The position numbers and the translations under genes are program-made. This document shows positions 56,211-60,633 of a DNA stretch of 64,000 nucleotides, piece by piece (the stretch's first letter is position 1; every line of letters starts with the position of its first letter). The stretch comes from Aquabacterium sp. Its GTDB lineage: Bacteria > Pseudomonadota > Gammaproteobacteria > Burkholderiales > Burkholderiaceae_C. The stretch covers positions 1 through 64,000 of the forward strand of contig JAHFQM010000009.1 in NCBI GenBank assembly GCA_023266355.1, written 5' to 3'. The notes below the pieces were generated by a model. The model was not told the origin of the DNA. It made no database searches and worked only from the letters and a program-made list of their open reading frames with translations.

Positions 56211-57431
56211 ATGACCGCATCAGCCACTGGTTTGCCCCCCACCGTTCTGCCCGAATTGCTGGACCAGGCCGAGGCCATCCGCGTGCTGCGCCGGGACATC
56301 CATGCCCACCCCGAGCTGTGCTTCGAGGAAGAGCGCACCGCCGACATCGTGGCGCGCACGCTGGCGTCTTTCGGCATCGAGGTGCACCGCGGCCTGGGCA
56401 AGACCGGCGTGGTCGGGGTCATCCAGGGCTTGCGCCCGGGCTCGCGCGCCATCGGCCTGCGTGCCGACATGGACGCCCTGCCCATGACGGAGCACAACAC
56501 CTTCGCCCACGCCAGTCGCCACCACGGCAAGATGCACGCCTGCGGCCACGACGGCCACGTCGCCATGCTGCTGTCCGCGGCCCAGCACCTGGCGGCGCAC
56601 CGCGATTTCGCAGGCACGGTGTATGTGGTGTTCCAGCCCGCAGAAGAAGGCGGCGGAGGTGCGCGGGAGATGGTCCGCGACGGCCTGTTCGAGCGCTTCC
56701 CGATGGACGCCATCTTCGGCATGCACAACTGGCCCGGCATGCCCGTGGGCAGCTTCGCCGTGCGCAACGGGCCGTGCTTTGCGTCCAGCAACGAGTTCCA
56801 CATCACCATCCGCGGCAAGGGTTGCCATGGCGCCATGCCGCACCTGGGCATCGACCCCGTGCCCGTGGCCTGCCAGCTGGTGCAGGCCTACCAGACCATC
56901 CTGACGCGCAATGTGCGGCCGGTGGAGACGGGCGTCATCTCGGTGACCATGATCCAGGCCGGCGAGGCCACCAACGTCATCCCCGAGTCGGTGGTGATGC
57001 AAGGCACGGTGCGCACCTTCACCACCGAGGTGCTGGACCTGATCGAAAACCGCATGCGCGAGATCACCCAGCAGCTGTGCGCCGCGTTTGGCGCCAGCGC
57101 CGATTTCGAATTCAGCCGCAACTACCCGCCCACGGTGAACCACGCCTTCGAGGCCCACTTCGTGCGCGAGGTGATGGCCGAAGTGGTGGGCGCCGAACAG
57201 GTGCACGAGTTCGAGCCCACCATGGGCGCGGAAGACTTCAGCTACTTCCTGCAGGCCAAGCCGGGTGCGTATTTCGTGATCGGCAATGGCGATGGCTCGC
57301 ACCGCGAAGGCGGCCACGGCCTGGGGCCCTGCATGCTGCACAACCCCAGCTACGACTTCAACGACACGCTCATCCCTTTGGGGGCGACGCTGTGGGTCAA
57401 GCTGGTCGAGCGCTGGCTGGCGCGGGCCTGA
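56211..57431 (+). CDS. M20-family amidohydrolase (hippurate hydrolase-like)
   Basis: This 406-residue metallohydrolase has RRDIHAHPELCFEE at the N-terminus. Metal-site motifs are LRADMDALPM near 85, MHACGHDGHVAML near 104-117, FQPAEEGGGGAREM near 142 and GAEDFSYF near 344; a dimerisation domain lies between. It probably cleaves N-acyl amino acids in the cytoplasm. ATG 56211 is preferred; the ORF upstream has no homology. It is divergent from the PHA protein. Confidence 0.94.
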   Translation: MTASATGLPPTVLPELLDQAEAIRVLRRDIHAHPELCFEEERTADIVARTLASFGIEVHRGLGKTGVVGVIQGLRPGSRAIGLRADMDALPMTEHNTFAHASRHHGKMHACGHDGHVAMLLSAAQHLAAHRDFAGTVYVVFQPAEEGGGGAREMVRDGLFERFPMDAIFGMHNWPGMPVGSFAVRNGPCFASSNEFHITIRGKGCHGAMPHLGIDPVPVACQLVQAYQTILTRNVRPVETGVISVTMIQAGEATNVIPESVVMQGTVRTFTTEVLDLIENRMREITQQLCAAFGASADFEFSRNYPPTVNHAFEAHFVREVMAEVVGAEQVHEFEPTMGAEDFSYFLQAKPGAYFVIGNGDGSHREGGHGLGPCMLHNPSYDFNDTLIPLGATLWVKLVERWLARA

Positions 57432-57461: not shown

Positions 57462-58175
57462 TCAATCCCAGGCGATGCGGTTCCACTGCAGGGCGCGGCT
57501 GCGCCAGTGTTCCTCGATGCTCTGCACGAAGTCGGGCCGCACGAGCTTGGCACGCTGCAGCAGCCAATCGGCGTCTTCGTGGCGCACCACCACGCCTTCG
57601 AGCGAGCCCTCGCGGTAATGGCTGCGGTGGGTCTGCACCCATTCGGTCAACTCGGGCAGCGAGGTCTGGCCTGAGCTGACGCGCGGCACCTCGCGCAGGC
57701 CCAGCTTCGTGGCCAGCGCATGGCGGCGGCGGGTGCTCCAGAAGCGCTGCTCGGCGCGGTCGTACACATCGAAGGCCAGGAACCAGTCGGGCAAGGCGGC
57801 GTAGTCCAGCGAGTGCTGGGCGGCGCACCATTCACCGAACAGCATCAGCGTGTCGCCCAGGGCATCGAAGAGCTCGCCTTCGCGCACGCTCAGCCACTCG
57901 TCCAGGCGCGTGAACTGGCCGCCATAGGGCTTGTTGAGGTACTGGCCGCGGTTCTGCACGTGCAACACGCCTTCGCTGGAAAACGAGATGCCCATGTTGG
58001 CGCCGTCGAGCTTTTCCTCGACGACCACGGCATGGTGCAGCAAGGCCCGGACCTCGTCGGGCGACAGCACCTTGTCGTCGCGCGGCGTGCCGCTGGCCAG
58101 CCAGGCCAGGTGGGGCGTGTGGGGGAAGCGGAAGAAATCGTGGGCGCTGGAGGGGGTGTTCGTGGCGGTGTTCAT
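57462..58175 (-). CDS. RNA ligase family protein (nucleotidyltransferase)
   Basis: This 237-residue protein has the covalent nucleotidyltransferase motifs in order: motif I EKLDG (Lys55), NRG near 76, motif III FGEWC near 113-117, motif IIIa FLAFDVYD near 132-139, motif IV EGVVVR near 193-198, and motif V RAKLVRPDF (Lys210). It resembles Rnl2-like RNA ligases but almost lacks a C-terminal domain. It probably adenylylates itself and joins RNA ends. It lies 15 nt downstream of a PIN-domain gene on the same strand. Substrate is unknown. Confidence 0.85.
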   Translation of the reverse strand: MNTATNTPSSAHDFFRFPHTPHLAWLASGTPRDDKVLSPDEVRALLHHAVVVEEKLDGANMGISFSSEGVLHVQNRGQYLNKPYGGQFTRLDEWLSVREGELFDALGDTLMLFGEWCAAQHSLDYAALPDWFLAFDVYDRAEQRFWSTRRRHALATKLGLREVPRVSSGQTSLPELTEWVQTHRSHYREGSLEGVVVRHEDADWLLQRAKLVRPDFVQSIEEHWRSRALQWNRIAWD

Positions 58176-58190
58176 GGCAAGGCTCCGGGC

Positions 58191-58742
58191 TCAGCGGCCG
58201 AACTTGTGCAGGTGGAATTGGTGGACCTCGCAGTCGCACAGGAAGTGCACGGCCACGCCGAACTCGGACAGACAGGGCGCCCAGTCCACCCATTTGGAAT
58301 CGGCCGCCTGCAGGATGGGCGGGTGCTGCGGGTGGCTGCAGGCCACGGCCACGAACTTGCGGTCGGCCGGGTCGAAGTCCCAGAGGCGCTCGTCGTGCGG
58401 AAAGTGGCGAAAGCCCCAGACCGGATCGGCTTCCAGGTGCACCAACTCGCAGCGGCTGGCGTCGTTGACGTGGTGCAGCACCCAGCGCACGAAGGCATCG
58501 CCCACGCCCTGCCCGGCTTGCGGGTCGGTCTTGTGGCGGTACTCGTGCAGGATCTCGAAGCCATCGTCCAGCACGATGCGGCCGTGCGCCATGATCTGGC
58601 CCAGCCAGTCGCGGCAGGTCTGCACGCAGGCAGCGGACACCGCCGGGTGCTGGCCGTTGGCCACGAGGATGACGTTGGTGTCCACCACGCACAACTCGGC
58701 GAAGGCCGGCAGGGCATGGGGCGGTGGAACAGGCGGCTTCAT
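58191..58742 (-). CDS. PIN-domain-like ribonuclease protein
   Basis: This 183-residue protein has a PIN-like acidic set: CVVDTNVIL (Asp21), ILHEYRH (Glu67), DFDPADRKFVAVA (Asp124 and Asp127) and AADSKWVDW (Asp148). PIN domains cleave RNA and include VapC toxins, but this one is longer than VapC and has a distinct C-terminus rich in Cys and His. The start ATG 58742 is only 40 nt from the divergent gspA start. The RNA ligase follows in the same operon. Confidence 0.72.
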   Translation of the reverse strand: MKPPVPPPHALPAFAELCVVDTNVILVANGQHPAVSAACVQTCRDWLGQIMAHGRIVLDDGFEILHEYRHKTDPQAGQGVGDAFVRWVLHHVNDASRCELVHLEADPVWGFRHFPHDERLWDFDPADRKFVAVACSHPQHPPILQAADSKWVDWAPCLSEFGVAVHFLCDCEVHQFHLHKFGR

Positions 58743-58782: not shown

Positions 58783-60633
58783 ATGTACGCCTCGTATTTC
58801 GGACTCAGGCAGGCGCCCTTCTCCATCGCGCCCGACCCGCGCTACCTCTTCATGAGCGAACGCCACCGCGAAGCGCTGGCCCACTTGCTTTATGGCGTGG
58901 GTGGCGGGGGTGGCTTCGTGCTGCTGACGGGCGAGATCGGTGCGGGCAAGACCACCGTGTGCCGCTGCTTCCTGGAGCAGATCCCGCGCCGCTGCAACGT
59001 GGCCTACATCTTCAACCCCAAGCTCAATGCCGCGGAGTTGCTGCAGGCCATCTGCGACGAGTTCCGCATCCCCGTGGCACCCGATGCCTCGGGCCAGGCC
59101 TCGATGAAGGCGCATGTCGATGCGCTCAACGAGTACCTGCTGAAGACGCACGCGGTGGGTCAGAACAACGTCCTCATCATCGACGAGGCGCAGAACCTGT
59201 CCACCGAGGTGCTGGAGCAGCTGCGCCTGCTGACCAACCTGGAGACCAGCGAGCGCAAGCTGCTGCAGATCATCCTCATCGGCCAGCCGGAGTTGCGCCA
59301 GATGCTGGCCCAACCCGAGCTGGAGCAGCTGGCCCAGCGCGTGATCGCGCGCTTCCACCTGGACGCGCTCTCGGAAGACGAGACCGCGCAATACATCCAG
59401 CACCGCCTCGCCACGGCAGGCCTGCGACGCGGCACCCTGTTCGACGGCAAGGCCGTGCGCCGCATCCACCAGATCACCAAGGGCGTGCCCCGCCGCATCA
59501 ACCTGCTGTGCGACCGGGCCTTGCTGGGCGCCTTCGCCGAGAGCAAAGCGCGGGTGGACCGTGCCATCGTGGACAAGGCCGCGGCCGAGGTGTTCGAGGG
59601 GCAGCACTTCGTGGGGCCCTCGTCGGCGCCAGCCACAGTGCCGCACGGCACCGCATCTGGTGGGCCGGCTCATCCAGGCCACACGGCTCGCCAGCGCCGG
59701 ACCTGGCCCGACTGGCCGCGCTGGGCCTGGGCGGGCCTGGGTGGCAGCCTGGTGTTGGCGGTGTCCGGACTGGGCCTGGGTGCATGGATGCACAGGCCGG
59801 GCGCCACCGCGACAGCGACAGAAACCGCAACCACAACCGCAGCGCAGGCACTGATTTCCGCGGCATCAGCTGCATCTGCCGCAGACCCGGCATCACGCAC
59901 CAGCGTGGCCATGGCGGCGGGGGCCACCAGCGGTGTGACCAGCGGCGCGGCGGCGCGGCCAGCAGCTTCATCCGCATCGGCCGCAGAGCTCAGCCCTCAG
60001 GCGCTCGTGCAGCGCGCCAGCCCCCACGAGGCCACGGCTTGGCGGACGCTGGCCCAGCTCTGGCAGGTCAACCTGGGCAATGGCGACCCCTGCACCCAGG
60101 CACGCCGGCAAGACCTGGTGTGCTTCCGCGCCAGCGGCGGGCTGAGCCTGCTGGTGCAGCTGGACCGCCCGGCCCTGCTGACCCTGCAAGACGAGCAAGG
60201 TCGCACACGGCATGCCGTGCTGACGCAGCTCGACACCCGCCAAGCGTGGTTGCAGGTGGGCAGCGAGACCGTGCGCACGCCCTTGAGCACGCTGTCCAGC
60301 ATCTGGCGCGGTGACTTCGCGACGCTCTGGCGCGCACCGGAAGGCTTCCGCAACAAGCTCACGCAAGGGCAAAGTGGCCCGGCCGTCGACTGGCTGGCAA
60401 CCCGTCTGGCGCAGATCGACCACGGCCCCGCAGCCACCACACCCGCCCGGCTGGACACGGCCTTGCAAACCCGGCTGCAGGCCTTCCAGATGGCACAAGG
60501 CCTCAAACCCGATGGCGTGGCCGGTGCCACCACCTTCATGCTGATCAACCGCGCCAGTGGCGTGCCCGAGCCGCGCCTGGTGCAGAGCGCGCCTGCCCCC
60601 GTGGCCGAACGCCCCAGCCCGCAGCGCCGCTGA
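58783..60633 (+). CDS. ExeA/GspA-type ATPase with C-terminal peptidoglycan-binding domain
   Basis: This 616-residue protein starts at ATG 58783 (MYASYFGLRQAPFSIAPDPRYLF, the ExeA signature). The AAA ATPase has Walker A TGEIGAGKTT (residues 49-58), Walker B VLIIDEAQNL near 128, and sensor regions. A membrane helix (about 310-330), an Ala/Thr/Ser-rich linker, and a C-terminal PG-binding domain (QTRLQAFQMAQGLKPDGVAGATT) follow. GspA with GspB places the type II secretin in the wall. Confidence 0.9.
   Translation: MYASYFGLRQAPFSIAPDPRYLFMSERHREALAHLLYGVGGGGGFVLLTGEIGAGKTTVCRCFLEQIPRRCNVAYIFNPKLNAAELLQAICDEFRIPVAPDASGQASMKAHVDALNEYLLKTHAVGQNNVLIIDEAQNLSTEVLEQLRLLTNLETSERKLLQIILIGQPELRQMLAQPELEQLAQRVIARFHLDALSEDETAQYIQHRLATAGLRRGTLFDGKAVRRIHQITKGVPRRINLLCDRALLGAFAESKARVDRAIVDKAAAEVFEGQHFVGPSSAPATVPHGTASGGPAHPGHTARQRRTWPDWPRWAWAGLGGSLVLAVSGLGLGAWMHRPGATATATETATTTAAQALISAASAASAADPASRTSVAMAAGATSGVTSGAAARPAASSASAAELSPQALVQRASPHEATAWRTLAQLWQVNLGNGDPCTQARRQDLVCFRASGGLSLLVQLDRPALLTLQDEQGRTRHAVLTQLDTRQAWLQVGSETVRTPLSTLSSIWRGDFATLWRAPEGFRNKLTQGQSGPAVDWLATRLAQIDHGPAATTPARLDTALQTRLQAFQMAQGLKPDGVAGATTFMLINRASGVPEPRLVQSAPAPVAERPSPQRR

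Follow-up and report, generated by a model that had tools for sequence, protein, structure and literature searches.

A PIN-fold protein and an RNA ligase encoded side by side in Aquabacterium represent the ATPase-less version of what is usually a three-gene ATPase-PIN-ligase cassette

Introduction

Defences of the abortive type are commonly regarded as irreversible, with an effector that destroys something vital so that growth ceases or the cell is lost. Several described systems are close to the locus examined here, and the accounts of them given below are drawn from portions of the cited papers. PADLOC lists HEC-03 as a candidate system composed of HEC-03A and HEC-03B; several HECs, HEC-06 among them, showed antiviral activity, and HEC-03 is not named in the portion of that report used here (PMC12988326). 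The anticodon nuclease PrrC is encoded between hsdS and hsdR of EcoprrI and leaves 5'-OH and 2',3'-cyclic phosphate ends that must first be healed, with the repair kit of Pnk and Rnl1 being provided by phage T4 (PMC3014915). PrrC is a single protein with a HEPN nuclease, whereas the PARIS system (AriA-AriB) combines an OLD/ABC-type ATPase with a metal-dependent RNase, and AriB leaves 5'-phosphate and 3'-OH ends (PMC12409363). WonAB, an ATPase and nuclease system that resembles PD-T4-4, shuts down translation; rRNA or tRNA was suggested as the target by those who described it (PMC12137116). The term RNA ligase is absent from PMC12137116 and PMC9519451. As far as the partial accounts used here go, the Pnkp-Rnl-Hen1 and RtcB-RtcA repair systems also join an RNA ligase with partner proteins that deal with cut RNA.

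Here we describe two adjacent genes in a 64,000-nucleotide stretch of DNA from Aquabacterium sp. (hereafter, the window). An earlier note on this DNA had proposed that a PIN-domain nuclease and an RNA ligase form an RNA damage/repair, tRNA-editing, or phage-defence module. The pairing of a cutting with a sealing enzyme stood, and of the proposed fields of action damage/repair or phage defence is still likely, but the ATPase that is the usual third gene had been missed. The note had also known of no described system with this pairing, which proved partly correct: ATPase plus PIN is already known as the HEC-03 candidate, whereas the ligase and the ATPase-less pair lie outside that listing. A literature search with preprints outside its scope retrieved no ligase as a third gene of HEC-03, no exchange between cassettes, and no ATPase-less pair; an earlier published mention of the ligase in these cassettes is possible.

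The locus and its relatives differ from each of the other systems as well. The PrrC-like feature is an ATPase-linked RNase between hsdS and hsdR, found in one relative (see below), but the predicted RNase is a separate PIN protein and not a fusion of HEPN and ABC ATPase, and the ligase is part of the presumed host operon. PARIS has the same type of ATPase with a metal-dependent RNase, but its effector is a Toprim and not a PIN protein, and the part of the source used here does not mention a ligase component (PMC12409363). PD-T4-4 and WonAB also pair an ATPase with a nuclease, but theirs has predicted PD-(D/E)xK residues. VapBC shares the PIN fold and acidic site, but the partner in the present family is an RNA ligase, usually plus an ATPase. 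In contrast to Pnkp-Rnl-Hen1 and RtcB-RtcA, the partner of the ligase is a predicted nuclease, and no kinase, phosphatase, methylase, or cyclase adjoins the window pair.

Results

Features of the two genes

The PIN gene at 58191-58742 and the ligase gene that follows it after 15 nt, as put forward in the earlier note, were both found as ORFs on the minus strand. Our self-written gene finder missed the PIN gene, a likely cause being an alternative start that overlaps its neighbour.

58191..58742, minus strand: PIN-fold predicted nuclease gene, 183 aa, PADLOC HEC-03A-like
58680..58682, minus strand: codon of PIN Asp21, after strand 1 of the model; D in 61/62 rows
58542..58544, minus strand: codon of PIN Glu67; E in 62/62 rows
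58371..58373, minus strand: codon of PIN Asp124, with Asp127 three codons further on; both D in 62/62 rows
58299..58301, minus strand: codon of PIN Asp148; D in 58/62 and E in 4/62 rows
58176..58190, minus strand: gap of 15 nt from PIN stop to ligase start
57462..58175, minus strand: gene for a minimal RNA ligase of the ATP type (PF09414), 237 aa
58011..58013, minus strand: codon of ligase Lys55 in motif I (EKLDG); K in 63/63 rows; the lysine expected to be adenylylated

A profile search with the window PIN yielded no Pfam family even at E 10, and neither PHROGs nor NCBIfam gave a match at E 1; the Pfam PIN_3 model was touched by two of its relatives with scores below the model's cut-off. The protein matched PADLOC HEC-03A (E 2.9e-20). 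A PDB sequence search gave no credible match for the PIN protein, and Foldseek with its AlphaFold2 model (pLDDT 94.1, pTM 0.89, built from 62 sequences) returned nothing under E 0.001. With VIA-align, 18 of the first 22 rows for the model were titled VapC, VapBC, FitAB, addiction module, or toxin-antitoxin complex, and the other 4 were hypothetical proteins; the best match was VapC21 (5sv2; Z 9.7, rmsd 3.0 over 124 residues). Rows 23 and 26 were the unrelated-looking cyclodehydratase RohQ, with Z 7.9 and 7.7. The acidic set proposed from the sequence (Asp21, Glu67, Asp124/127, Asp148) is conserved in the 62-row alignment, in which D59 is a further invariant acid (62/62), and the predicted structure supports the PIN fold. 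Position 21 is Gly in 1/62 rows; this is L060, a PIN of a three-gene locus, and the substitution counts against the explanation that we favor below. The modeled structure and conserved residues place the window protein in the PIN superfamily as a predicted nuclease with a VapC-like fold and a conserved acidic site. No VapB-like gene adjoins it among ORFs of >=70 aa, the size range listed.

The ligase is about as long as the nucleotidyltransferase (catalytic) domain alone. It matched PF09414 with E 2.6e-34 and 119.3 bits against a curated cut-off of 27, and K55, D57, G58, E115, E193, G194, and K210 were invariant in 63/63 alignment rows, so the nucleotidyltransferase motifs that had been read from the sequence are well supported. 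Adenylylation of the motif I lysine is established ligase chemistry, and ATP-type RNA ligases join a 5'-phosphate to a 3'-OH with need of neither kinase nor phosphatase. The window protein is a member of the ATP-dependent RNA ligase family, with end joining predicted from that membership. Its model (pLDDT 89.7) was nearest to a Naegleria RNA ligase (Z 17.4), followed by T4 Rnl2 (16.1) and T4 Rnl1 (14.2), and a PDB sequence search gave weak matches (best E 0.00067). As the closest structures are those of nick-sealing ligases, the PIN cut is predicted to fall within paired RNA or close to it. The ligase gene of a Lelliottia relative had no DNA match in E. coli.

The PIN protein was absent from the 50,697 phage records searched, and ligase relatives of 27-31% identity occurred in 9 phage records. 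A viral contig (L092:4998-5663) carries a ligase alone with 45% identity; with such an enzyme a phage could reverse RNA cleavage inflicted on it by its host. More distant ligases (∼31-34% identity) are encoded on plasmids of Pseudomonas, Variovorax, and Bosea (L113-L115) with an AAA ATPase gene downstream, a different arrangement that perhaps joins a ligase to a kinase.

Pairing of the PIN and ligase genes

Relatives were collected by searching a named-genome collection with a six-ligase profile, and the best 80 of at least 566 were used. The PIN gene lies immediately upstream of the ligase in 77 of these best 80 loci, four of the 77 (L017, L024, L053, and L066) being cut by a contig end; the three without PIN are L035, L039, and L079, the last a ligase alone. 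Spacing was measured with starts chosen by rule, which left 68 loci after 9/77 had been dropped for an N-terminal ligase motif pattern that was not matched. It was <=30 nt in 66/68, and the genes overlap by 4 nt in 24/68. One of the 77, in Polaromonas sp. P2-4 (L059:5487-5995), has a cassette that is complete except that its PIN gene is split into two ORFs.

An independent count used 398 genomes sampled from the phylum and not seeded by this pair. The PIN gene was detected in 15/398 (E 1e-10) and the ligase in 16/398 (E 1e-20). Eleven of the 16 ligase matches were full-length with E < 1e-60, one (G323) was partial and lacked a PIN gene, and the remaining four were weaker and partial (E 1e-35 to 1e-38), a split that was set after viewing the list. 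All 11 close full-length ligases were in PIN-containing genomes and, by their coordinates, adjoined PIN; if the two genes were distributed independently, P would be 1.6e-18, in a count that includes the window's own genome. The conservation of the neighbourhood that the earlier note had proposed to examine is thus seen in both samples, and the pairing of PIN with ligase is not by chance.

The three-gene cassette

An OLD/ABC-type ATPase of ∼460 aa is encoded directly upstream of PIN in 62 of the same best 80 of at least 566 loci. Three of these ATPases were scanned; the match to HEC-03B had E 8.6e-129 for L006, AriA models were matched more weakly, and the Pfam content is AAA_15/AAA_21 plus DUF3696. 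Even the divergent PINs of the ATPase cassettes match HEC-03A. The family thus resembles HEC-03 in that the window PIN corresponds to HEC-03A and the ATPase of its relatives to HEC-03B. It differs in its ligase, since no PADLOC-DB 2.0.0 model matched either of two ligases scanned, and in the window genome, where HEC-03B is missing; for that reason the window pair is not filed as HEC-03.

Ten of the 18/80 loci without the ATPase form one branch with the window pair (L010-L019, with L017 cut by a contig end; hereafter, the window branch). The others are L071 and L077, the contig-end loci L024, L053, and L066, and the 3 without PIN. Within this family, which mostly occurs as ATPase-PIN-ligase, the window pair represents an ATPase-less branch. 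A second ATPase-less PIN-ligase pair, with a PIN of type B, was observed in two gammaproteobacteria (L071:1675-2960 and L077:5423-6708); both copies are chromosomal and share a common site.

Viewed from the ATPase side, the HEC-03B model (E 1e-40) identified 14/398 phylum genomes, in which PIN was adjacent in 14/14 and the ligase in 10/14. These values indicate that ATPase and PIN are the core and the ligase is a frequent third gene. ATPase-PIN loci without an adjacent ligase (4/14 sampled loci, L006, L007, and an Acinetobacter plasmid locus) show that the cassette can do without the ligase. We considered whether the proline-rich C-terminal tail of many ATPase-linked PINs, which has no counterpart in the window branch, might be an ATPase contact; this idea was rejected because the tail also is missing in a group of ATPase-linked PINs (L029, L030, L041, L059, L061, L065, L068, L070, L072, L073, and L091). 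At the cut-offs used, only positions 86 and 98 distinguish window-branch PINs from those of type A.

Spread and genomic setting

Within the taxonomic family, PIN was found in 9/299 genomes, own included, with the ligase beside it in 7/9; within the class, the ligase was found in 8/369 genomes, a count that holds the window's own, one partial match, and two very weak ones. The cassette occurs on plasmids of Aeromonas, Azotobacter, Tistrella, and Rhodococcus, where PIN is annotated as hypothetical, and 12/72,556 plasmid records contain PIN.

Neighbours of L020-L089 were counted by BLAST clusters, with family models run on few of them. An HNH-type gene is common to 15/70 loci (14 downstream of the ligase, 1 upstream), a large methylase gene lies upstream in 13/70, and HsdM in 5/70. 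At L036:614-10009 the three genes are inserted in a type I restriction locus in the order hsdM-hsdS-ATPase-PIN-ligase-hsdR; L049, which is cut by a contig end, probably has the same arrangement, as judged from N-terminal sequence. The window pair lies outside any type I restriction locus.

A PADLOC scan (1e-20) covered 100/320 flank genes of three-gene loci and 60/74 of window-type loci. The former matched 111 models, those listed including type I specificity subunits, JetA, Dsr1, PDC, and RtcR; the latter matched 19, with mad3 in 5/60 and one member each for the others (helicase-like models). We claim no enrichment because matches were counted per model and not per protein, and the result is mixed in that window-type flanks also match some PADLOC models. 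Three QueC genes in the three-gene flanks come from flanking sequence that the related loci L020, L022, and L025 have in common, and the RlaP and RtcR families each were found in 2/100 sampled three-gene flank genes. The patchiness, plasmids, and restriction neighbours fit accessory conflict genes, and from this genomic context we infer a defence role for the cassette.

Phylogeny and gene exchange

The trees are quick maximum-likelihood trees; that of the ligase is unrooted, its sole outgroup-like row being the long phage row L092. On the PIN tree, each of two ATPase types required 3 changes, versus 29 and 24 for shuffled types; ATPase and PIN evolve as a unit. On the ligase tree, 25 and 18 changes were required versus 31.0 and 24.5 for shuffled types, with at least 8 and at least 6 forced by starred branches and 33/90 inner branches open.

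Two single loci place the ligase in other company. At L035:4002-8950 a large methylase-like gene is followed by PD-T4-4_A and PD-T4-4_B and then by a ligase gene of this kind, with an HNH gene and a gene that we take to be DUF3800-like further downstream. At L039:2422-4586, a type I restriction locus without PIN, the ligase follows genes for the MqsR toxin, the MqsA antitoxin, and a SecB-like chaperone. MqsR is an RNase of another kind and may leave ends that such a ligase could not join alone. Because its tree follows the ATPase type far less and these two loci, single cases each, contain it, the ligase seems to move among cassettes with a nuclease effector.

The ATPase-less ligases form one clade (97*) of 14 rows, in each of which a PIN ORF precedes the ligase, that of L017 being cut by the contig end. 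Together with a sister group that has the ATPase in 10/11 rows, the clade again is a starred branch (96*). The window branch needs 2 changes on the PIN tree, and its single origin is possible in that this tree is compatible with it. From the unrooted ligase tree, the ATPase may have been lost in the window branch rather than never gained.

The site of the window branch

The pair is bordered by two genes that mark its site and lie outside the system:

58783..60633, plus strand: divergent flanking gene, presumably ExeA/GspA-like
56232..57431, plus strand: flanking gene on the other side, which we take to be an M20-type amidohydrolase

On the PIN side, the ExeA-like neighbour was present in 8/9 loci with the upstream part available (L016 lacks it, and L017 is cut). 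On the ligase side, the M20-type neighbour was present in 9/10 of L010-L019 (all but L016), some with extra genes between. In the same genus, 8/13 genomes, own included, contain HEC-03A, six as the ATPase-less pair and two with the ATPase. Among those that do not, G159 has the two neighbours ∼60 nt apart and empty between, and G303 has a different gene between them; G241, G306, and G307 have the site neighbours on different contigs and were excluded from the site comparison.

The window genome has a single ligase of this kind. A search of it with the L059 ATPase (E 0.001, run with no positive control) detected no ATPase, and the HEC-03B model at E 1e-40, which found 14 other genomes, gave no match. 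Active-site residues are intact in 10/10 PIN rows of the window branch and likewise in the ligase rows. For the ten rows, the median dN/dS was 0.23 for PIN (42/45 pairs usable) and 0.11 for the ligase (43/45), and both genes are under purifying selection.

Discussion

We give about even odds to the following explanation. The three-gene form would be an ATPase-licensed RNase effector that carries its own resealing ligase, and the window pair would be its domesticated descendant. In the three-gene form, the ATPase would act as a sensor that silences PIN until it detects infection or the breakdown of a neighbouring restriction system, and the released PIN would act as an RNase against translation RNA. 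PIN enzymes are metal-dependent nucleases. Their cuts are expected to carry 5'-phosphate and 3'-OH, by two-metal chemistry as for AriB, a Toprim enzyme (PMC12409363, in part). Since these expected ends are those joined by an ATP-type RNA ligase, the ligase could reseal leaked or past cuts; with such matching chemistry, PIN and ligase would by themselves suffice to cut and to reseal, in contrast to PrrC, whose cuts must be healed before they can be joined. The ligase would thereby provide a built-in brake and recovery tool for the cassette. In the window, the ATPase would have been lost and the pair fixed in the chromosome, where a slow cutting rate, a host factor, or the ligase may restrain PIN, and where the two proteins would be a cut-and-reseal duo acting on a host RNA. 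This explanation draws on the gene order, the trees, the genomic setting, and the structural models described above; against it stand the ATPase-PIN loci that have no ligase, the ends that MqsR may leave at L039, the Gly21 of L060, the mixed flank scan, and the unrooted tree on which loss of the ATPase depends.

Two other explanations are unlikely to about the same degree. In one, the pair is a stand-alone toxin with an enzymatic antidote, a VapC-like PIN whose antitoxin is replaced by the ligase as it reseals the cut RNA, and its purpose is its own persistence and not defence. The VapC-like fold of the model fits this proposal, as do the tight gene spacing, the lack of a VapB-like small gene by the window PIN among ORFs of >=70 aa, and the fact that ATPase-less branches occur twice, once with a type A PIN (L010-L019) and once with a type B PIN (L071/L077). 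However, the window branch is mostly at one site, and G159 and G303 have that site without the pair, a loss that an addictive module would resist; moreover, PIN occurs without the ligase in some ATPase loci. In the other explanation, the proteins maintain RNA, with PIN trimming or excising damaged RNA and the ligase joining it, no defence role, and the ATPase forms being derived. Purifying selection and the common chromosomal site of the window branch agree with such a function, and the type B pairs are likewise chromosomal; the RlaP and RtcR genes in the three-gene flanks can be read the same way. The patchy spread, plasmid carriage, and nearby restriction genes argue against it, as does the grouping of the ATPase-less ligases as one clade beside a mostly ATPase-bearing sister group.

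Quite unlikely is a reading in which the ligase counters the phage rather than PIN, as a separate tool in the cassette for mending host RNAs that phage or other defence RNases have cleaved. The ligase does swap cassettes, following PD-T4-4 and MqsRA-SecB at one locus each, but in the window branch it keeps with PIN alone, and the 4-nt overlaps of the two genes point to joint action of their products. We hold it equally doubtful that the window branch has become a sensor-free programmed machine, derived from a defence cassette able to reverse its own damage, in which a specific host RNA is opened by PIN and then rejoined or circularised by the ligase; if true, bacteria would have a step of RNA splicing or switching that is carried out by proteins. 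That the window pair is what is left, in decay and without present function, of a defence cassette whose ATPase was lost, as might be suggested by the missing ATPase, the faster evolution of PIN than of the ligase, and the empty site in G159 of the same genus, is very improbable given the retained active sites, the low dN/dS values, and the single ligase clade with a PIN ORF before each member.

Returning to the ATPase-licensed effector with its own ligase, if this explanation is true, a ligase in the same operon, matched to the ends expected from the nuclease and passed between different ATPase-nuclease cassettes, would make such a defence reversible and would explain how a leaky RNase is tolerated. 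The PrrC story would be reversed, in that there the phage supplies the repair enzymes and here the host carries one. The ATPase-less branch is a small two-protein system for direct study of cutting and sealing. These results suggest that certain bacterial defences may come with a means of mending the very RNA that they cleave.
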